NCBI RefSeq assembly: GCF_008000815.1 | Contig: NZ_CP042806.1 | Location: 1,364,001 to 1,428,000, forward strand | DNA length: 64,000 nucleotides | Source of the DNA: Terriglobus albidus | GTDB lineage: Bacteria > Acidobacteriota > Terriglobia > Terriglobales > Acidobacteriaceae | Reading direction: 5' to 3' | Shown here: positions 41,728 to 52,505 of the stretch, piece after piece | Position numbering within the stretch: position 1 is the stretch's first letter | Layout of the letters: each line of letters starts with the position of its first letter | The notes under the pieces: model-generated | The model's database searches: none | What the model was told of the DNA's origin: nothing | Seen by the model: the letters and a program-made list of their open reading frames with translations, nothing else | Translations under genes and position numbers: made by a program

Positions 41728-42894
41728 ATGACGGGAAAAACTGGAACAGGAAGAACTGGCTTTGAACTGACGGAAGAACAAGAAGAATTGCAGCGAGTGA
41801 TTCGCCGCTTTGCGCAGACTGAGATTGCTCCACACGTCCGCGAGTGGGATGAAAAGTGTACCTTTCCCAGCGAGGTTGTACGGCAGTTAGGCCAGATGGG
41901 TCTGCTGGGTGTTCTCTTTCCTCCGGAACTGGGCGGGAGCGGGATGGGCTATGTGGAGTACGTGCTGGCCATCGAGGAGCTGTCCAGAGTGGATGGTTCG
42001 GTCGGAATCATCGTGGCGGCGCACAATTCGCTGTCCACGAACCACATCTATCTTGCAGGCAACCCGGAACAACATCGCCGATGGGTAACGCCGCTGGCGT
42101 CTGGCGAATGGCTTGGATGCTGGGGGCTCACTGAGCCTGGCTCCGGCTCCGATGCCCTTGGCGCTCGCACCACGGCGGTACGTTCTGATCGCGGTTGGGT
42201 ACTGAACGGCAGCAAGACCTTTATTACGAATGGAAGCCATGCGGATTGTGCTGTTGTGATTGCTGTGACCGACCGGACAAAGGGAAGCCACGGTATGACA
42301 GCCTTCGTCGTGGAGAAAGGCACACCCGGTTTTCGTCCCGGCAAGAAAGAAGACAAGCTGGGACTGCGCGCTTCCGATACTTCGGAGTTGATCTTCGAAG
42401 ACTGTCTGATTCCCGATGAAAATCGGCTGGGCCAGGAGGGCGAAGGTTTCATTGATGCTATGAGGGTTCTTGATGGTGGGCGTATTTCCATTGCCGCCCT
42501 GGCACTCGGAATTGGCCGGGGTGCGTATGATGCCGCGCTGAAATATGCCAAGGAGCGGCACCAGTTTGGCAAGTCAATAAGCCAGTTTCAGGCGATCCAG
42601 TTCAAGCTGGCTGATATGGCGACGAATCTAGAGGCCGCAAAGCTGTTAACGCTTAATGCGGCGCGCCTGAAAAATGCCGGGCACAAGACGACTTTGGAGT
42701 CCTCGATGGCGAAACTCTTTGCAGGTGAGGCTGCTGTACGTATCTGCGATGAATGCGTGCAGATTCATGGCGGCTATGGTTTCATCAAGGACTATCCGGC
42801 AGAGAAGTTCTATCGGGACGTAAAATTGTGCACAATCGGCGAGGGTACCAGCGAGATTCAGCGCATGGTGATTGCACGCGAGATCTTGAAGTAG
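41728..42894 (+). CDS. Acyl-CoA dehydrogenase, short-chain type
   Basis: A 388-residue FAD flavoprotein that makes the 2,3-enoyl-CoA. Signatures: [15 protein letters not shown] and [11 protein letters not shown] (FAD contacts), [18 protein letters not shown] and [20 protein letters not shown]. The catalytic base is Glu372 in [10 protein letters not shown], the position used by short/medium-chain enzymes; isovaleryl-CoA dehydrogenases have Ala or Gly there and use a Glu in an earlier helix, where this protein has Gly (LDGGR). So although it heads a leucine-type operon, it is not a canonical isovaleryl-CoA dehydrogenase and may act on other short or branched acyl-CoAs. Confidence 0.92.
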
Positions 42895-42926
42895 AAGTTC
42901 GTATTCCGACGAATACCGGGGAGTCG

Positions 42927-44636
42927 ATGTCAGAGGCCGCCAGCAAGAACACGTTGCCGACAAAACTGGATGGCACTGCTCCGCGCGTCCGCAACAACCA
43001 CCAGGCGCTGCTCACGTTGCTTGCGGCAATGCGCGAAGAACAGGCAACGATTCGCCTGGGCGGCGGAGCCAAAGCCACTGAAGCGCAGCACGCTAAGAAG
43101 AGGCTGACAGCTCGCGAGCGCCTGGAGCTGCTGCTCGATCCCGGCACTCCATTTCTGGAGCTTGGTCTTTATGCAGCCCATGGCATGTACGAGGAGTGGG
43201 GCGGGGCTCCGGCAGCGGGAGTTGTCACCGGCTTAGGACGGGTTTGCGGAAGGCTGGTCATGCTGGTTGCCAATGATGCAACCGTGAAGGCCGGCGCCTT
43301 CTTTCCGCTGACCGCGAAGAAAGTGATTCGTGCGCAGACGATTGCTCTCGATAACCGCATTCCTACGCTCTATCTCGTCGATTCCTCCGGAGTCTTCCTG
43401 CCGTTGCAGGAGGATGTCTTTCCCGATCAGGATGACTTCGGCCGCGTCTTCCGCAACAACGCTGTGATGTCAGCACGAAACATTCCCCAGATCACCGCAA
43501 TTATGGGCATGTGCGTGGCGGGCGGAGCCTATCTTCCCGTCATGACCGATACCGTACTGATGACCGAAGGCAGCGGACTTTTTCTTGCTGGTCCCGCTCT
43601 TGTCCAAGCGGCCATCGGGCAAAAGGTTGGCGCCGAGGAGTTAGGTGGGGCGACCATGCACGCGGAGATCTCCGGGAGCGTCGACTTCAAGGAGCCCGAT
43701 GATGCCGCTTGCCTTACACGGCTGCGTTCTCTCGTTGACAAGCTGGGACATCGAAATCGTGCGCCGTTCGATGCCATTCCCTTCGATCCTGAGAAGGATG
43801 CTCCCCTCTATCCTTCGGACGAACTCTATGGATTGATTGATCCTGATCCAGTACGCGCGGCCACGAATACCTATGACGTGCATGAGGTAATTGCGCGCAT
43901 TGTCGATCGCTCTGCGTTCGATGAATATCGCGCTAACTACGGACGAACTCTGGTTTGCGGCTATGCGCGGATTGGCGGCTATGCCGTAGGGATCGTTGCG
44001 AATCAAAAGCAGCACCAGAGTATGGTGATGCCGGGCGGGGAACGTCGCACGGAGTTTGGCGGCGTCATCTATACCGAGAGTGCAGAGAAGGCCGCCAGAT
44101 TTATTCTCGACTGCAACCAGAGCCTGATCCCTCTGGTCTTCCTCCATGATGTCAACGGGTTCATGGTCGGCCGCGACGCCGAACAGAACGGCATCATCCG
44201 CGCGGGAGCAAAGATGGTCACCGCGGTTTCGAATTCAGTCGTGCCCAAGATCTCTGTGATCCTTGGCGGCAGCTTCGGAGCAGGGCACTATGCGATGTGC
44301 GGCAAAGCCTATGATCCGCGTTTTATCTTTGCCTGGCCAACGGCGCGTTATGCCGTGATGAGTGGGGCGTCTGCCGCGAATACGCTGGTAGAAGTGCGCG
44401 TCAAGCAGCTCGAGCGCAAGGGCCATGCGATCTCAGATGAGGAGCGAAAGCAGATCTTTGATGAGATCAAGAGCACCTACGATGCGCAAGCCGATCCGCG
44501 CTATGGCGCCGCTCGCTTATGGATTGATGCGATCATTGATCCCGCGGAGACGCGTACAGTATTGATCAGCACGCTTGAGGCCGTCAGCCTCAACCCTGAC
44601 GTTGAGAAGTTCAATCCAGGCGTGATTCAAACGTAG
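42927..44636 (+). CDS. Acyl-CoA carboxylase carboxyltransferase subunit, methylcrotonyl-type
   Basis: A 569-residue carboxyltransferase that moves CO2 from carboxybiotin to an acyl-CoA. The N-half has KKRLTARERLELLLDPGTPF and the acyl-CoA site; the C-half has FLHDVNGFMVGRDAEQNGII and KISVILGGSFGAGHYAMCGK, closest by eye to methylcrotonyl-CoA carboxylase beta chains. The start at 42927 has GGGGAG upstream; the longer frame from 42753 overlaps the dehydrogenase gene. No biotin carboxylase/biotin carrier partner is encoded nearby, so it must be elsewhere. Confidence 0.9.
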   Translation: MSEAASKNTLPTKLDGTAPRVRNNHQALLTLLAAMREEQATIRLGGGAKATEAQHAKKRLTARERLELLLDPGTPFLELGLYAAHGMYEEWGGAPAAGVVTGLGRVCGRLVMLVANDATVKAGAFFPLTAKKVIRAQTIALDNRIPTLYLVDSSGVFLPLQEDVFPDQDDFGRVFRNNAVMSARNIPQITAIMGMCVAGGAYLPVMTDTVLMTEGSGLFLAGPALVQAAIGQKVGAEELGGATMHAEISGSVDFKEPDDAACLTRLRSLVDKLGHRNRAPFDAIPFDPEKDAPLYPSDELYGLIDPDPVRAATNTYDVHEVIARIVDRSAFDEYRANYGRTLVCGYARIGGYAVGIVANQKQHQSMVMPGGERRTEFGGVIYTESAEKAARFILDCNQSLIPLVFLHDVNGFMVGRDAEQNGIIRAGAKMVTAVSNSVVPKISVILGGSFGAGHYAMCGKAYDPRFIFAWPTARYAVMSGASAANTLVEVRVKQLERKGHAISDEERKQIFDEIKSTYDAQADPRYGAARLWIDAIIDPAETRTVLISTLEAVSLNPDVEKFNPGVIQT

Positions 44637-44650
44637 CGTTTGCAAAAGAG

Positions 44651-45541
44651 ATGATGAATACGGTCAAGTTGATTGAGTGTCCACGCGACGCCTGGCAAGG
44701 GCTCTCCAGGATTATTCCTGCCGAGGTCAAAGCCGATTACCTTCGCATGCTGATCGCTGCCGGATTTCGCCATATCGATGCAGCCAGCTTTGTCTCTCCG
44801 AAAGCCGTTCCACAGATGGCTGACTCTGAGAAGGTGCTTGCCTTCGTTGATCCGCCAGGGGATGTTGAGATCATCGGGATAGTGGTCAACGCAAAAGGAG
44901 CGGAGCGGGCAGTTAAGACGGAAGTGGTAACGACGCTCGGTTTCCCCTACTCCATTTCGCCGGAGTTTTTACATAGAAACCAAAATCAGACTGCGGAGCA
45001 GGCGTTGGATGAACTTGAGGCTGTAGGCGAGATGGCTTATAAAGCAGGCTTGAATGTAGCGGCGTATGTATCGATGGGTTTTGGCAATCCATACGGCGAC
45101 CCGTGGAGCATCAACGAAGTTACCGCCGCTTGTGAACTGCTCGTTGAGAGCGGTGTCAGGCAGATCTCCATCGCCGATACGGTCGGCCTGGCTACCGCGG
45201 AACAGATCGGCGAAGTCTTTTCGGCAGCACGTGAGTCAGTGGACAGCGAAATTGAAGTCGGACTCCACCTGCATTCGAAGCCAGGAGATGCGGCACCAAA
45301 GGTTCGCGCGGCTTATCTCGCGGGCTGCCGCCGCTTCGACACCGCCATTGCCGGGCTCGGCGGATGTCCCTTTGCACAGGATGACCTGGTCGGAAATATG
45401 CCAACCGAGGCGGTTATGGCTGAGCTTGCCGGCATGGGAGTCCCCCCGCCGGAGATTTCTCCGCTAGAGACATTGATCGCGCTGAATCGAGAGTTTTCCA
45501 GGCGCTATGGGCAAGTGGAAACACAGAGGACGGCTCCGTGA
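44651..45541 (+). CDS. Hydroxymethylglutaryl-CoA lyase-like enzyme
   Basis: A 296-residue DRE-TIM-type lyase expected to split HMG-CoA to acetyl-CoA and acetoacetate. The N-terminal catalytic Arg12-Asp13 are in IECPRDAWQG, a variant of the usual PRDGLQ seen, as I recall, in Bacteroidota-type lyases. The metal-binding HxH is in GLHLHSKPGD and the active-site Cys loop is GLGGCPFAQDDLVGN. Two ATGs open the frame (44651, 44654). The stop overlaps the GTG start of the next gene. It supplies acetoacetate to the scoAB operon. Confidence 0.88.
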   Translation: MMNTVKLIECPRDAWQGLSRIIPAEVKADYLRMLIAAGFRHIDAASFVSPKAVPQMADSEKVLAFVDPPGDVEIIGIVVNAKGAERAVKTEVVTTLGFPYSISPEFLHRNQNQTAEQALDELEAVGEMAYKAGLNVAAYVSMGFGNPYGDPWSINEVTAACELLVESGVRQISIADTVGLATAEQIGEVFSAARESVDSEIEVGLHLHSKPGDAAPKVRAAYLAGCRRFDTAIAGLGGCPFAQDDLVGNMPTEAVMAELAGMGVPPPEISPLETLIALNREFSRRYGQVETQRTAP

Positions 45542-46311
45542 ATACGCTGCTGACAGATCTGGAAGAAGGCATTCTGACGATCACACTGAACCGTCCGGAG
45601 CGGCGCAATGCATTGACTCCTGAGATGCAGGAGGAGCTGATCGCAGCATTTGAAGCTGCGAAAACAGGTGCCGTGAAGGTGGTTATCTTGACCGGTGCCG
45701 GTGCGGCTTTCTGTTCCGGGCTGGATCTGGCTGTGCTGGAGTCAATGTTCGAGCAAACAGTCGAAGAGCAGAAGGCGGATGCGCAGCGTACCGCGCAGCT
45801 CTTTCGTACGCTGTATGCCCTTCCGATACCAGCTATTGCGGCGGTGAATGGTCACGCCATCGCCGGCGGGACAGGGTTGGCGACTCTCTGCGACTTCACC
45901 TTTGCCGTCCCAGGGGCAAAGTTCGGATACACGGAAGTGAAGATCGGTTTCATCCCGGCGCTGGTCTCCGTCTTTCTCGGTCTGCAACTCGGCGATAAAC
46001 AGGCAAGAAACCTTTTGCTGACGGGGCAGCTTTTTGACGCTCAGCAAGCGCACGAACTGGGGCTGGTAAACGAGATTGTCGCGAGCGAGATGTTGTTGGA
46101 GCGGGTGCACCTCTTCGCGCAGGAGCTCCTCCAGAACAGCCCATCTGCAATGCGGAAGACAAAAGAGCTGCTGATCGCTCAGACCGCTTCGGAACTGGAC
46201 GCGAGAATTGAACGGGCCGTGGCTGCCAGTCTCCACACCAGGCAACACCCTGACTTCCAGGAGGGCGTAACCGCATTCCTGAGCAAACGAAAGCCCCGCT
46301 GGCAAGACTAG
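45538..46311 (+). CDS. Enoyl-CoA hydratase/isomerase family protein
   Basis: A 257-residue crotonase-fold enzyme starting with GTG, overlapping the previous stop as GTGA. The oxyanion-hole segments are GAAFCSGLDLAVL and AVNGHAIAGGTGLATLCDF; the catalytic Glu region is GYTEVKIGFIPALVS. One of the two usual catalytic Glu positions is clear. By context it is the best candidate for methylglutaconyl-CoA hydratase, which feeds the lyase encoded just upstream. Substrate is inferred from position. Confidence 0.88.
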   Translation: MNTLLTDLEEGILTITLNRPERRNALTPEMQEELIAAFEAAKTGAVKVVILTGAGAAFCSGLDLAVLESMFEQTVEEQKADAQRTAQLFRTLYALPIPAIAAVNGHAIAGGTGLATLCDFTFAVPGAKFGYTEVKIGFIPALVSVFLGLQLGDKQARNLLLTGQLFDAQQAHELGLVNEIVASEMLLERVHLFAQELLQNSPSAMRKTKELLIAQTASELDARIERAVAASLHTRQHPDFQEGVTAFLSKRKPRWQD

Positions 46312-46345: not shown

Positions 46346-46539
46346 GGTGGTAAGGCGATGGGTGGGACGCGGTAGTGGGACTTTGGCATCATCGCAAATG
46401 CTTGAAAATAAAGCAGAAGAGACCCGTTGCATTAAATTCTGACGGTTTCTCTCGAATCGGTATTCCAAAAGCACAAGAGGAAGCCTATGCTGTTCCGTTG
46501 CCGGAAGGCGACGCTGCCTTGCGGCAGAGACGGAGCTCT

Positions 46540-47685
46540 ATGTCAGCTACGAAGAGCATTCTTTCCCAACCGGCCGAGGCGGCTCCCCCAACGAACGTTG
46601 ATTTTCTTCCACTCAAGGGAATCGATCACCTGGAGTTCTATGTCGGCAATGCCCGGCAGGCTTCGTATTTTTACCGGACAGCTTTTGGCATGTCTCTGGT
46701 GGCCTATGCTGGCCCTGAGACCGGGCAACGAGATCGAGCCTCGTATGTTGTTCAGCAGGGCAAGATTCGCTTTGTGCTGACGACGGTCCTTCGTCCAGTT
46801 CATGCGATTGCGGAACATGTGCAGCACCACGGAGATGGAGTCCGTTGCGTGGCGCTATGGGTGGATGATGCTCGCCAGTCGTGGCATGAGACAGTCAACC
46901 GCGGCGCTGTCAGCGTTGCCGAACCCTATGTCGTATCGGACGATCACGGTCAGGCCGTACTGGCAAGCATTCGCGCCTACGGCGATACCATCCATACCTT
47001 TGTTCAGCGTGGAGACTATCAGGGGCCGTTTCTTCCTGGTTTTCGTGCCATAGAGGAAGACCCCGTCGCTCGCCCTGTGGGCCTGTTGCACATTGATCAC
47101 GTTGTGGGCAACGTCGGCTGGCATGAAATGAATACCTGGGTTGATTTTTACGCCAAGGTGATGGGATTCAGTCTCTATCAAAGCTTTGATGACAAAGATA
47201 TTTCGACCGAATACTCCGCGCTCATGTCCAAGGTGATGTCCAACGGCAACGGGTATGTGAAGTTTCCTATCAACGAGCCGGCGGAGGGCAAACGCAAGTC
47301 CCAGATCGAAGAGTACCTGGACTTCTACGGCGGCCCTGGGGTACAGCATATTGCTTTGGCGACCAAGGACATCCTGCATACGGTCAACAAACTCCATGAG
47401 CAGGGCGTGGAGTTTCTGCGCGTTCCGCATACGTATTATTCCGAGCTACAGCAGCGCGTCGGCCGGATTGATGAGCCTGTTGATGAACTCGAACGGCTCG
47501 GCATCCTGGTGGATCGCGACGATGAAGGTTACATGCTGCAGATCTTTACCCGTCCTGTGGAAGATCGCCCCACTCTGTTCTTTGAGATCATTCAGCGCAA
47601 AGGAAGCCGTAGCTTCGGAAAAGGTAATTTCAAAGCCCTCTTTGAGGCCATCGAAAGGGAACAGCAGGCTCGCGGCAATCTGTAA
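46540..47685 (+). CDS. hppD: 4-hydroxyphenylpyruvate dioxygenase
   Basis: A 381-residue non-haem iron enzyme converting 4-hydroxyphenylpyruvate to homogentisate. Two vicinal-oxygen-chelate halves are visible: GIDHLEFYVGNARQASYFY in the first and LLHIDHVVGNVGWHEMNTWV in the second. The iron ligands are the His in HIDHVVGNV, the His in GVQHIALATKD, and the Glu in LFFEIIQRKG. The start at 46540 follows CGGAG; the frame is open upstream without family similarity. The 13-base gap to phhA puts both in one transcript. Confidence 0.95.
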   Translation: MSATKSILSQPAEAAPPTNVDFLPLKGIDHLEFYVGNARQASYFYRTAFGMSLVAYAGPETGQRDRASYVVQQGKIRFVLTTVLRPVHAIAEHVQHHGDGVRCVALWVDDARQSWHETVNRGAVSVAEPYVVSDDHGQAVLASIRAYGDTIHTFVQRGDYQGPFLPGFRAIEEDPVARPVGLLHIDHVVGNVGWHEMNTWVDFYAKVMGFSLYQSFDDKDISTEYSALMSKVMSNGNGYVKFPINEPAEGKRKSQIEEYLDFYGGPGVQHIALATKDILHTVNKLHEQGVEFLRVPHTYYSELQQRVGRIDEPVDELERLGILVDRDDEGYMLQIFTRPVEDRPTLFFEIIQRKGSRSFGKGNFKALFEAIEREQQARGNL

Positions 47686-47698
47686 GAGGAGAACGACC

Positions 47699-48451
47699 AT
47701 GACAACTGCAACACTTTCCGCGGCGGCGCCTTACCTCATCAACCAGGACTACTCGTCCTATACCGAGGAGCAGCACAGCATCTGGGCCGAGCTTGTCGGA
47801 CGTGTTCTTCCCGAACTTGAGAAACACGCGGCACAGGAGTATCTCGACGGCTTCCAGATCATCGGTCTAAAACGCGACCGGCTACCCAATCTTGCAGAGG
47901 TGAACGCACGATTGGGACCAAGAACCGGATGGAACTCCACCGCGGTAAGTGGTTTTCTGCCTTCGCAGGCATTCTTTGAGATGCTGGCTGCGCGCAAATT
48001 CCCAACGACGGTTTGGCTGCGCAGCCGGGAATCGATGGAATATACGCCTGAGCCGGATATCTTTCACGATGTCGTCGGTCATGTGCCGATGCATGCGCAT
48101 CCGGTTTTTGCAGACTTCCTGGAGCACTATGGCCGTGTCTGTGTTGCTACTCCGGAGGAGCCAATTCGTGAAAAGCTTTCTCGCCTCTTCTGGTATACGG
48201 TCGAGTTCGGATTGATTCGCCAGCAAGGGGAGATCAAAGTGTATGGCAGCGGCCTCATCAGCTCGCATGGAGAATGTCTGAATGTCATGGGCGGCCACTG
48301 CGCCATCAAGGAATTCTCGCTGGCTGAAGTGGTAAATACGCCGGTCAAGATCGACGAGCTTCATAAGTTGCTCTTCGTCGTAAACAGCTTCGATCAGCTC
48401 TACGAAATTATGCACGAGGCAGAGCGGCTCGCCACGAGCGGTCGCCTGTAG
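47699..48451 (+). CDS. phhA: Phenylalanine 4-monooxygenase
   Basis: A 250-residue bacterial phenylalanine hydroxylase, pterin-dependent, converting Phe to Tyr. The iron ligands His123 and His128 are in IFHDVVGHVPMHAHP and Glu169 in FWYTVEFGLI. Length fits single-domain bacterial enzymes (about 260), with no ACT regulatory domain. AGGAG precedes the ATG at 47699. It links Phe to the homogentisate genes around it; the needed tyrosine aminotransferase is not in the cluster. Confidence 0.95.
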   Translation: MTTATLSAAAPYLINQDYSSYTEEQHSIWAELVGRVLPELEKHAAQEYLDGFQIIGLKRDRLPNLAEVNARLGPRTGWNSTAVSGFLPSQAFFEMLAARKFPTTVWLRSRESMEYTPEPDIFHDVVGHVPMHAHPVFADFLEHYGRVCVATPEEPIREKLSRLFWYTVEFGLIRQQGEIKVYGSGLISSHGECLNVMGGHCAIKEFSLAEVVNTPVKIDELHKLLFVVNSFDQLYEIMHEAERLATSGRL

Positions 48452-48463
48452 AGAGGGTTATCC

Positions 48464-49816
48464 ATGACGGTTGGCGTCCTGTATCAGTCCGGCTTCGGCA
48501 ATGAATTTGTGTCGGAGGCTGTCCCCGGAGCGTTGCCTCTTGGCCAGAATGCTCCGCAGAAACATCCTTTAGGTCTCTATACTGAGCAGCTCAGCGGAAC
48601 GCCTTTTACCGCGCCGCGATCTCAGAATCGCCGTACTTGGACCTATCGCATACGTCCATCGGTGACTCACCAGCCATACGAAGAGATTCCCTCACGCCTT
48701 ATCCGGAGTGGCCCGTTTACTGAGATCCCGACCCCACCCAATCAGTTGCGGTGGGACCCGTTGCCAATCCCCGAGGAGCCCACAGATTTTGTGGACGGCA
48801 TCGTTACGTTAGGCGGGAATGGCGATCCTGCCATGCAGACCGGAGTCGCGATTCATCTCTATGCCGCGAACCGATCCATGAACGATAGATTCTTCTACAG
48901 TGCCGATGGAGAGTCCCTCGTCGTTCCCCAGCTAGGCACACTGCGTCTCCACACCGAATTGGGCATTTTAGAAACGGCGCCTGGTGAGATCTGCGTGATC
49001 CCTCGCGGAATCAAATTCCGTGTTGAATTGATCGATGGGCAGGCACGAGGGTATCTCTGTGAGAACTACGGCCAGACCTTTCGTCTGCCGGACCTGGGGC
49101 CCATCGGAGCGAATGGATTAGCAAACGCGCGAGATTTCCAGGCGCCGACAGCGGCCTTTGAAAACCTCGATGGAGAATTTCATATCACAGCGAAATTCCT
49201 CGGCCGGCTCTGGACCGCACAGATCGACCACTCGCCCTTAGATGTCGTTGCCTGGCACGGTAACTATGCGCCGTACAAATATGATCTTGCGCGCTTCAAT
49301 TGCATCAACACGGTTTCGTTTGACCATCCCGATCCTTCGATCTATACCGTCTTGAGTTCTCCGTCAGCGATACCTGGTACCGCAAACTGTGACTTCGCGA
49401 TCTTCCCCCCGCGCTGGCTTGTGGCTGAACACAGCTTCCGGCCTCCCTGGTTCCATCGAAACTTTATGAATGAATTTATGGGGTTGATCGTGGGGGCCTA
49501 TGACGCGAAGGCCGAGGGCTTTCTTCCGGGAGGAGCCAGCTTACACAACTGCATGGCCGGTCATGGACCTGATGCCGAAACCTTCGAACGGGCTAGTTCC
49601 GCTGAACTGAAACCACAGTATCTCGACAACACTCTGGCCTTTATGTTCGAGACGCAACTGGTCGTGCGGCCTACTGAGTTCGCAATGCATACTCGCATCC
49701 TTCAGCATGAATATTTCGAATGCTGGCAGGGGCTCAGAAAGCATTTTCAGGCTGAAGTCTCGCCGAATGGAAGGCCTAAGCCCTCCGGCGAGAAGCTGAA
49801 ATTCACGACCCGATGA
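48464..49816 (+). CDS. hmgA: Homogentisate 1,2-dioxygenase
   Basis: A 450-residue iron dioxygenase that opens homogentisate to maleylacetoacetate. The N-terminus [19 protein letters not shown] is diagnostic. Catalytic and ligand residues are in [30 protein letters not shown] (His, Glu) and [14 protein letters not shown] (His). Length is typical. It starts 12 bases after phhA and its stop overlaps the next gene as ATGA. Confidence 0.96.
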
Positions 49817-50667
49817 CCGCGACCGATAGCCTCCTCTCGGGCCTGATCGATTACGCAGGCCTGTATCCACCTGCCGGTCTCGACATGAAGTCGGCTGTCA
49901 GCAGCTACCTTGCCTACAAACGCAATCGACATTCGGAGTTATTGGGCCGTTTTATTGTTGATAGGAAGCGCCTCTCCGAGCTTCGCGAAGTTGCGGGTGA
50001 TGCCATTGCCGATATGCCTTTGAGTGTCATTGCATCTTCTGTCGCGGAGGTGAGCAACATCGCACAACTCCACAAGGGTGGGTTTCGCGTCGAATCTATT
50101 GAAGTGAAGCCTGACGGGCTGGATGAAATAGGCCTCAAGACCGCATGGAGGCCGCCAGAGAGTACCGTTTACTTCGAGGTACCGATGATGCCTCTCGACG
50201 TAGAGGTGCTGACGTCCATACGTATGGTGGGTGCCCGCGTCAAAATACGGACGGGTGGCATAACTGCCGCGGCATTTCCTTCCTCGGAGGCAATCGCCGC
50301 AATGTTGACTGCAATGGCCGGCAGGGACCTGGAATTCAAGGCTACAGCGGGCCTTCATCACCCAATCCGTGGATGCCACCCATTTACCTATGAACCCGAT
50401 AGCGAAACGGGAATCATGCATGGTTTTCTTAACCTGTTTCTCGCGGCTACAGATATTTACTTCGGAGGAACGGAAGACAGAGCACAACAAATACTTGATG
50501 AGCAAGACCCGGAAGCTTTCCGCGTGACTGCGGATACGATTGGATGGCGGTCGTTTCAGTGGAGCGCGGAGAAACTCCGCACCGTTCGAGGAGAGTTTGC
50601 CATAAGCTTTGGTTCCTGCTCCTTCGTGGAACCAATTCAGGACCTGGAGAGATTGGGATGGCTATAG
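49813..50667 (+). CDS. Uncharacterised protein between hmgA and fahA
   Basis: A 284-residue soluble protein with no signal peptide or membrane helix. I do not recognise a named family. Conserved-looking blocks are [19 protein letters not shown] at the start, [37 protein letters not shown], then [15 protein letters not shown] and [11 protein letters not shown]. Alternating short beta strands and helices and the basic, Gly-rich strand ends ([14 protein letters not shown]) suggest a TIM-barrel-like enzyme. It overlaps hmgA by four bases and fahA by ten, so it is made with them in fixed ratio. The pathway step between those enzymes, maleylacetoacetate isomerisation, has no other gene here; assigning it to this protein is a hypothesis. 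Confidence 0.85.
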
Positions 50668-51944
50668 CAAGCAGGAGCTGGATATCGTCGGCCAATGATC
50701 CTGAGTCGGATTTCCCCATCCAGAACTTGCCCTACGGTGTGTTTCTTTATCGCGAGACGGCTCACATCGGTGTTGCTATTGGAGATCAGATCCTTGATCT
50801 TTATGCCTGCGCCGATCAAGGTTTCCTTTCCATTCTCTCAAAGGAAGTAGCCGCTGCTTGTAAGGCTCGTACCTTGAATCCATTGATGTCTCTCGGGCCG
50901 GAGGCTTGGTCTGCTTTGAGGCGACAACTCATGACACTGCTCGATGAGGGTTATGAGAAGAAGAGCGATGTCGAACCGCTACTCCTTTCGAGGAAGGATG
51001 CGGTCATGAGACCGCCGGCGGATATCGGAGACTATACGGATTTCTATGCATCGATTTATCACGCAACCCGCGTCGGACGTCTCTTCCGTCCGGACAATCC
51101 ATTACTGCCGAACTACAAGTATGTTCCCATCGGCTATCACGGCCGCGTATCTTCCATCGTGATCAGCGGTGCGGATATTCGCCGTCCGTGTGGGCAGATA
51201 AAGCCTCCTGCGGCCGAAGCCCCGGTCTTTGGACCGTCGAAGTCCCTCGATTACGAACTGGAAGTCGGCATCCTGGTGGGTACCGGGAATCCACTGGGGC
51301 ACAGTATCCCGATCGATAAGGCCGAAGAGCACATCTTTGGTTTATGCCTTGTCAACGATTGGTCGGCGCGCGATATACAGTCCTGGGAGTATCAGCCCCT
51401 AGGCCCATTTCTCGCCAAGAACTTTGCGACGACGATCTCTCCCTGGATTGTGCCTCTCGAAGCTCTCTCCCCATATCGCGTTCCTTCCTTCGAGCGTCCG
51501 GCAAATGATCCAGCTCCGCTACCCTATCTCGCTTCATCCTCTCGCGACAGAGACGGCATCGATCTGACGCTGGAGGTCTATCTCCAATCCGAAGCAATGC
51601 GGCAGCAACAGATGCAGGCCATGATGCTCAGTCGCGGTAACCTGCGTGACCTTTACTGGACCATCGGTCAACTCGTGACGCATCACACCTGCAACGGCTG
51701 CAACCTACGTCCGGGTGATCTGCTTGCCACAGGAACGATCTCCGGGCCGGAGGCAGGTTCCGAAGGATGTCTCCTGGAAAAGCGACATAATCCCGAACCC
51801 CTGCGCTTGCCTACCGGAGAAATTCGAACCTTCCTTGAGGATGGCGATGAGATTACCTTCCGTGCCTATACCCAGAAATCAGGGCTGCCAAGAATTGGCT
51901 TTGGTGATTGCACAGGCAGGGTAGTCGCTCTTGAAGCTTGTTAG
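50658..51944 (+). CDS. fahA: Fumarylacetoacetase
   Basis: A 428-residue enzyme that hydrolyses fumarylacetoacetate to fumarate and acetoacetate. The N-terminal SH3-like domain is followed by the FAH fold: DYTDFYASIYHATRVGRLFRP, PIGYHGRVSSIVISG, LDYELEVGILVGTGNPLG (metal-binding acidic residues), LVNDWSARDIQSWEYQPLGP and LATGTISGPEAGSEGCLLE. The start at 50658 is chosen by GGAGAGATTGGG before the ATG and by family length (about 420); a longer frame from 50544 lies inside the previous gene. Last gene of the operon; acetoacetate passes to ScoAB. Confidence 0.95.
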   Translation: MAIASRSWISSANDPESDFPIQNLPYGVFLYRETAHIGVAIGDQILDLYACADQGFLSILSKEVAAACKARTLNPLMSLGPEAWSALRRQLMTLLDEGYEKKSDVEPLLLSRKDAVMRPPADIGDYTDFYASIYHATRVGRLFRPDNPLLPNYKYVPIGYHGRVSSIVISGADIRRPCGQIKPPAAEAPVFGPSKSLDYELEVGILVGTGNPLGHSIPIDKAEEHIFGLCLVNDWSARDIQSWEYQPLGPFLAKNFATTISPWIVPLEALSPYRVPSFERPANDPAPLPYLASSSRDRDGIDLTLEVYLQSEAMRQQQMQAMMLSRGNLRDLYWTIGQLVTHHTCNGCNLRPGDLLATGTISGPEAGSEGCLLEKRHNPEPLRLPTGEIRTFLEDGDEITFRAYTQKSGLPRIGFGDCTGRVVALEAC

Positions 51945-51977: not shown

Positions 51978-52505
51978 TCAGGCTTTCGCCTTTAAGATTC
52001 GTATGACTGCCATGATCGTATTCCAACTACGAGTTGCTGCGGTCGCCCCGAACAGTTCGTCAATCTGGCTGAGGTAACCGATTGTCTTCATGCTACGTCG
52101 ATACTCTCCGAAAACAAATCGTCCCTCGGAGGCCATGATGCGTACGAACCACTCTCCGCTTGCAGGAAGAGCGCATGGAAGAGAGGTCGTGCGGCGGCCC
52201 GACTTCGAGAGGACACTCATGAAGCGGACGATATCGCGGGGCGGTGGAGTGATCTCAAAAGGATTTTCGTCCTCCATGCGTATAAGATCAGCGCCGTCGC
52301 AGAACATTACCTGCGTGTCGAAAGGAAGCATTCGGAGCAACTCAGCGCGAAGTTTGGTCCGAGATCCCGGTTTTCGAACGACGAATGTGCCTGCAGTACC
52401 TACATTCACGACATCATATTGGCGGAGGTTCTCCGCCAATATGCTTGGGCGAAATGTTCTATGGCCGCCGACATTAACGCCCCGAAGAAAGATAACGAGA
52501 GCCAC
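51978..52505 (-). CDS. DUF1697 family protein
   Basis: A 175-residue cytoplasmic protein. The start MALVIFLRGVNVGGHRTFRPS, with NVGTAGTFVVRKPGSRTKLR and MSVLSKSG further on, matches the DUF1697 family, which has no established function. Its 3' end is convergent with fahA, 33 bases apart, with no clear hairpin between them. Confidence 0.85.
   Translation of the reverse strand: MALVIFLRGVNVGGHRTFRPSILAENLRQYDVVNVGTAGTFVVRKPGSRTKLRAELLRMLPFDTQVMFCDGADLIRMEDENPFEITPPPRDIVRFMSVLSKSGRRTTSLPCALPASGEWFVRIMASEGRFVFGEYRRSMKTIGYLSQIDELFGATAATRSWNTIMAVIRILKAKA

Follow-up and report, generated by a model that had tools for sequence, protein, structure and literature searches.

In the textbook homogentisate pathway the isomerase requires glutathione, a thiol that many bacteria do not produce. 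This enzyme, MaiA or HmgC, is a zeta-class glutathione S-transferase (GST; family TIGR01262) with a thioredoxin-like plus helical GST fold. In its substrate maleylacetoacetate a C4 ketone stands beside the cis C2=C3 bond; glutathione adds to the cis bond and is released once that bond has turned. Maleate isomerase and the mycothiol-dependent maleylpyruvate isomerase likewise carry out a cis-trans isomerisation on a maleyl group, by means of a cysteine of the enzyme or of a thiol cofactor. A glutathione-independent maleylacetoacetate isomerase activity was reportedly found in Gram-positive bacteria by Hagedorn and Chapman in 1985, and we know of no gene that has been assigned to it. Here we describe a stretch of 64,000 nucleotides from Terriglobus albidus (Acidobacteriota; contig NZ_CP042806.1, positions 1,364,001 to 1,428,000), hereafter the window, in which a gene that we call X lies between hmgA and fahA. 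We infer, from conserved gene position, co-occurrence with fahA, a TIM-barrel model and invariant residues on the barrel strands, that X probably converts maleylacetoacetate to fumarylacetoacetate without glutathione, in the place of MaiA. X would take maleylacetoacetate from HmgA and hand fumarylacetoacetate to FahA. The genes of the cluster are as follows:

49813..50667, forward strand: gene X, candidate glutathione-independent maleylacetoacetate isomerase, 284 residues, ATG start, predicted DERA-like TIM barrel
48464..49816, forward strand: hmgA, homogentisate 1,2-dioxygenase, which makes maleylacetoacetate (TIGR01015, 688 bits)
50658..51944, forward strand: fahA, fumarylacetoacetase, which uses fumarylacetoacetate (TIGR01266, 531 bits)
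46375..47685 (from the first start of the open frame), forward strand: hppD, 4-hydroxyphenylpyruvate dioxygenase (TIGR01263; domain match from residue 81)
47351..48451 (from the first start of the open frame), forward strand: phhA, phenylalanine 4-monooxygenase (NF008877; domain match from residue 118)

A preliminary description of this DNA, made from its letters alone, had placed a gene of 284 residues between hmgA and fahA, overlapping them by 4 and 10 bases respectively, and the coordinates of the open reading frames and the family models agree with it (fahA being read from the ATG at 50658, within a longer frame that opens at 50544). It had put phhA before hppD, whereas the family matches give the order hppD-phhA-hmgA-X-fahA. 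X is a real gene, given its homologues in the phylum and those without stops in the same family, which occur in 31 of 150 genomes (the window's own counted). A scan of genome contigs with the single X protein as query gave four loci.

The usual isomerase is missing from the cluster, as had been noted before, and profile searches extend this lack to the whole genome, which is available as one contig of 6,405,582 bases, is 99.74% complete and holds a single copy of X. No match to MaiA (TIGR01262) was found at E <= 0.001 and none to GST_N_3 over cut-off (best E 0.42), these two being the GST models run; a MaiA homologue elsewhere in the genome had been named beforehand as one finding that would speak against a replacement. 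Glutathione synthetase (TIGR01380, the one model of glutathione synthesis run) was likewise without a match (best E 0.28). In the same searches, 14 control genomes gave one genome over cut-off for TIGR01262, six for GST_N_3 and three for TIGR01380. That none of the three models exceeds its threshold in the host genome is a further basis for the proposed role of X.

The distribution of X was surveyed in 297 Acidobacteriota genomes, including that of the window. X matched in 56 of them, one of which (G239; 43 positions, E 4.8e-4) was dropped as spurious, leaving 55, while fahA (TIGR01266 over cut-off) is present in 67. The two genes occur together in 54 genomes, X alone in one, fahA alone in 13 and neither in 229 (Fisher p 1.5e-45, uncorrected for kinship). 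An hmgA match at E <= 0.001 is found in 53 of the 55 X genomes, over cut-off in 31, and the exceptions, G330 (neither fahA nor hmgA) and G213 (no hmgA), both have X at the start of a contig. The co-occurrence that the preliminary description had suggested surveying is thus near-complete, and homologues of X are not common in genomes lacking hmgA and fahA, a pattern that it had said would count against its proposal. Position is conserved too: in 44 of the 55 genomes fahA follows X within 2 kb on the same strand. In G249 and G328, hmgA stands between the two and fahA is 2.8 kb off; in the remaining nine, X and fahA are far apart or on separate contigs, or fahA is absent.

Outside Acidobacteriota, plasmid records were searched by tblastn with X, and 23 carry it (Streptomyces 11, Priestia 6, Pseudonocardia 2, Rhodococcus 2, Nonomuraea 1 and Kovacikia 1). 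Nine of these records were viewed, and in all nine fahA is the next gene after X. The gene directly 5' of X is hmgA or an hmgA-like cupin gene in Nonomuraea, both Rhodococcus, Pseudonocardia and Streptomyces sp. Alt3. The hmgA of Priestia comes two genes after fahA, that of Kovacikia is close by on the opposite strand, and two other Streptomyces records have none in the stretch shown. HmgA in the loci of Priestia, Kovacikia, Pseudonocardia, Nonomuraea and Streptomyces sp. Alt3 is only 24-27% identical to that of the window, so that HmgA has changed in type, whereas the position of X has stayed the same. Divergent HmgA-like proteins are seen in homogentisate clusters of Bacilli, Cyanobacteria and Actinomycetes (L036-L040). 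On the two Streptomyces plasmids with no hmgA in the stretch viewed, a gene annotated as having a maleylpyruvate isomerase N-terminal domain lies 3-5 kb from X (L035:2985-3641, forward strand; L110:308-964, reverse strand).

These loci bear on the idea that X serves another catabolic branch that shares the operon, acting for instance on acetoacetate or 4-hydroxyphenylpyruvate. In one genus (G238, G264 and G304; L088:6205-7041, forward strand, L089 and L090), X is far from fahA, among PF04371 deiminase-like, alpha/beta hydrolase, aldehyde dehydrogenase-like and thiolase genes (labelled by Pfam in G238 only and by similarity in the other two), which would suit such a role. It is nevertheless very improbable, since the link between X and fahA persists in the Rhodococcus, Pseudonocardia and Streptomyces loci viewed, where neither hppD nor phhA is listed beside X and where, in some, a flavin adenine dinucleotide (FAD) monooxygenase or a coenzyme A-transferase takes their place.

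X has no credible Pfam match (best DUF179, E 0.044) and none in NCBIfam, PHROGs or among PDB sequences. The 38 members in alignment A1 (which omits the duplicates L001 and L006, and L033) give no hit to a Pfam or NCBIfam family with E below 0.03, and their profile finds nothing below E 0.47 among PDB sequences; a viral fold search with X gave nothing at E <= 0.001. The model of X (predicted local distance difference test score, pLDDT, 96.4) comprises eight alternating strand-helix units, and a fold search with it matches TIM barrels, as the preliminary description had surmised. That description had also seen no GST features in X, and GST domains are indeed unmatched in Pfam and NCBIfam for X and for all 38 members. 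In Pfam X does not match the FAA_hydrolase domain either, and so does not belong to the fumarylacetoacetase family. Nine residues are invariant (D13, E97, E122, K144, R146, K176, H182, N207 and C269), a check for which L033, L054, L058 and L063 were restored; alignment A2 omits these four together with L021, the plasmid loci and duplicates. Three of the invariant residues are central to what follows:

50242..50244, forward strand: codon of Lys144, predicted strand 6 (142-146), in the place of the Schiff-base lysine of DERA
50338..50340, forward strand: codon of Lys176, predicted strand 7 (175-178), in the place of the second lysine of DERA
50617..50619, forward strand: codon of Cys269, in the GSCS stretch with which predicted strand 8 ends

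In E. coli DERA (DeoC), K167 is the Schiff-base lysine and K201 the second lysine, and the GAS(S) turn after strand 8 binds phosphate. The predicted model gives X a DERA-type TIM barrel with K144 on strand 6 and K176 on strand 7, as are the lysines of the DeoC model, and a weak profile alignment pairs them with K167 and K201, although their roles in X are predicted ones. X differs from DERA in its low identity (10-20% in structural alignments), in an insertion between strands 7 and 8, and in ending strand 8 with GSCS rather than with the GAS of DERA, a correspondence drawn by eye and lying outside the profile alignment. In that alignment, Glu97 and Glu122 fall two and one columns off the DERA acidic residues to which they were matched by eye. 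The DeoC models of Pfam and NCBIfam match none of the 38 members, and hhalign of X against DeoC gave P 0.027 and 0.009 (probability 2-3%), with no useful alignment in global mode.

These residues suggest how an isomerase could work without glutathione. Lys144, helped by Lys176, would form a protonated Schiff base (imine) with the C4 ketone of maleylacetoacetate, by which C2 would become electrophilic. An enzyme nucleophile, for which Cys269 is the first candidate, would then add reversibly at C2, the resulting single bond would turn and elimination would yield the trans form, while arginines such as Arg146 and Arg259 would hold the two carboxylates. The nucleophile of X would play, from within the protein, the part that glutathione has in MaiA. 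That X is in this sense an isomerase of a new cis-trans class, a class I aldolase-type TIM barrel, with a lysine Schiff base and a cysteine of its own replacing glutathione, in Acidobacteriota, Actinomycetota, Bacillota and Cyanobacteriota alike, is put forward tentatively. In terms of reaction, X would correspond to MaiA without being its orthologue. It shares with MaiA the proposed reaction and the slot beside fahA (held by maiA on an Acinetobacter plasmid), and differs from it in being a predicted TIM barrel with no GST domain match. With maleate isomerase and maleylpyruvate isomerase X would share the cis-trans isomerisation of a maleyl group; the folds of these enzymes differ from that of X, which has no Pfam match to such families.

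Class I aldolase chemistry could instead serve cleavage, which counts against X being an isomerase. A DERA-like fold with two invariant lysines fits C-C bond chemistry on ketones, and X might be a lyase or hydrolase that splits maleylacetoacetate, or a side product, for instance to maleate and acetoacetate. PMC4457819, which cites Crawford 1976, mentions a maleylacetoacetate hydrolase activity in some Bacillus strains and states that its gene was not directly identifiable in the species studied. A cleaving X would, however, render fahA superfluous, yet fahA is present in all but one of the X genomes and is mostly the next gene, and this near-constancy favours isomerisation over cleavage by the same lysines. 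Moreover, no product for the use of maleate is named in seven annotated neighbourhoods, although two list a protein with a maleylpyruvate isomerase N-terminal domain. A lyase or hydrolase is thus unlikely.

Several other observations weigh against X as the isomerase, support for which is indirect, its activity being predicted. The sequences give weak evidence that X descends from DERA, and the maleylpyruvate isomerase N-terminal domain genes near X in Streptomyces possibly encode a thiol-dependent isomerase. X and TIGR01262 matches at E <= 0.001 are both missing from 13 of the 67 fahA genomes, and hmgA is over cut-off in 11 of these 13, so that some lineages manage without either protein; these genomes may have a third way through the isomerisation step. 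They are the following:

Genomes with fahA and with neither X nor a MaiA match (stretches L069-L087): G034, G066, G116, G186, G236, G245, G286, G294, G302, G332, G372, G412, G420

Around hmgA and fahA in these X-negative genomes (19 stretches), no stand-in isomerase was seen among the neighbours labelled, which were labelled by similarity, with Pfam applied to 11 proteins and most of the others unscanned. Of 10 of these 11, four had no match, and the matches obtained were to alpha/beta hydrolase, regulator, carboxypeptidase-regulatory, aldehyde dehydrogenase and dimethylarginine-hydrolase-type families, besides weak ones to FAA_hydrolase. One of the latter is a 260-residue protein near fahA-hppD (L076:9903-10682, reverse strand; 24.4 bits, cut-off 23.9), possibly a second hydrolase; it was scanned in L076 only, and similar genes are found in L077, L078 and L079. 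Nocardia farcinica also has an hmgA-fahA pair with no X between. On a FahA tree of 79 rows (pieces with at most 330 aligned residues and near-duplicates were dropped), the 14 X-negative rows, that is the 13 and Nocardia farcinica, need eight changes, at least five of them forced by well-supported branches, implying that X was gained or lost several times. The notion that X-negative genomes form a distinct FahA clade was rejected, as they are scattered over several places on this tree.

These 13 genomes, in which the step is apparently done otherwise, would also suit X assisting FahA or being an enzyme that clears away by-products, the cis-trans step being spontaneous or carried out by FahA or another unrecognised enzyme. 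X adjoins fahA in several genomes even though hmgA sits on another contig (e.g. G184, G256 and G296), which fits such a role. Set against it are the enzyme-like invariant set of X, from D13 to C269, and the Acinetobacter plasmid, in which maiA is beside fahA, X is not listed, and the slot is thus seen to be capable of holding an isomerase. A helper or clean-up role is distinctly unlikely.

Returning to X as the isomerase, an inverse relation with GSTs and glutathione synthetase is not significant. TIGR01262 matches (E <= 0.001) occur in 6 of 55 X genomes versus 47 of 242 without X (p 0.17), and glutathione synthetase is over cut-off in 1 of 55 versus 12 of 242 (p 0.47); its model is matched at E <= 0.001 in 13 X genomes, 12 of them below cut-off, and X-negative genomes lack the enzyme about as often as X genomes. 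A phylum-wide exclusion of GSTs or of glutathione synthesis by X was rejected as statistically unsupported, and the anti-correlation with MaiA that the preliminary description proposed to look for is not significant in Acidobacteriota. Its proposal of a non-orthologous isomerase is supported, indirectly, by the lack of MaiA, the co-occurrence with fahA and hmgA and the TIM barrel, but not by GST anti-correlation, nor by the 13 fahA genomes that have neither protein.

Of the 13 genomes with glutathione synthetase over cut-off, 12 belong to one family, the other being G335. G335 is the sole genome with MaiA over cut-off, and it has no fahA match at E <= 0.001, so that it is no test of replacement. 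Eight of the 13 have hmgA over cut-off, all of them from genus g140 and without X, and in seven of these eight a GST match lies directly 5' of hmgA (by Pfam in one), while tblastn gave no match in the eighth, G250. One such GST gene is at L098:5144-5830, on the forward strand. Genus g140 has no TIGR01266 match over cut-off, which makes for an unclean comparison with X genomes. The pattern in Acidobacteriota, with glutathione synthetase and GST-hmgA on one side and X on the other, is suggestive rather than statistical, and G291 has both glutathione synthetase and X.

According to PMC4457819, Bacillus anthracis has no identifiable maleylacetoacetate isomerase gene, and the fate of maleylacetoacetate there needs more analysis. 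X, with members in at least four phyla, offers a single protein with which the glutathione-free step can be examined directly, and it shares its proposed activity with the Gram-positive glutathione-independent isomerase, being itself present in Gram-positive genera. The reaction is a known one and the protein family is probably undescribed: no literature on it was found among open-licence PubMed Central papers, although it may be in print elsewhere. The mechanism is perhaps new. If true, it would be a Schiff-base route to cis-trans isomerisation, of which we know in no other enzyme.

Elsewhere in the window, fahA is followed on the reverse strand (51978-52505) by an open reading frame of 175 residues with no NCBIfam match at 1e-10, which we take to resemble a DUF1697 protein. 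Upstream of hppD, positions 42753-46311 hold carboxyltransferase, hydroxymethylglutaryl-CoA lyase-like and enoyl-CoA hydratase genes, read as being of the leucine-degradation type.
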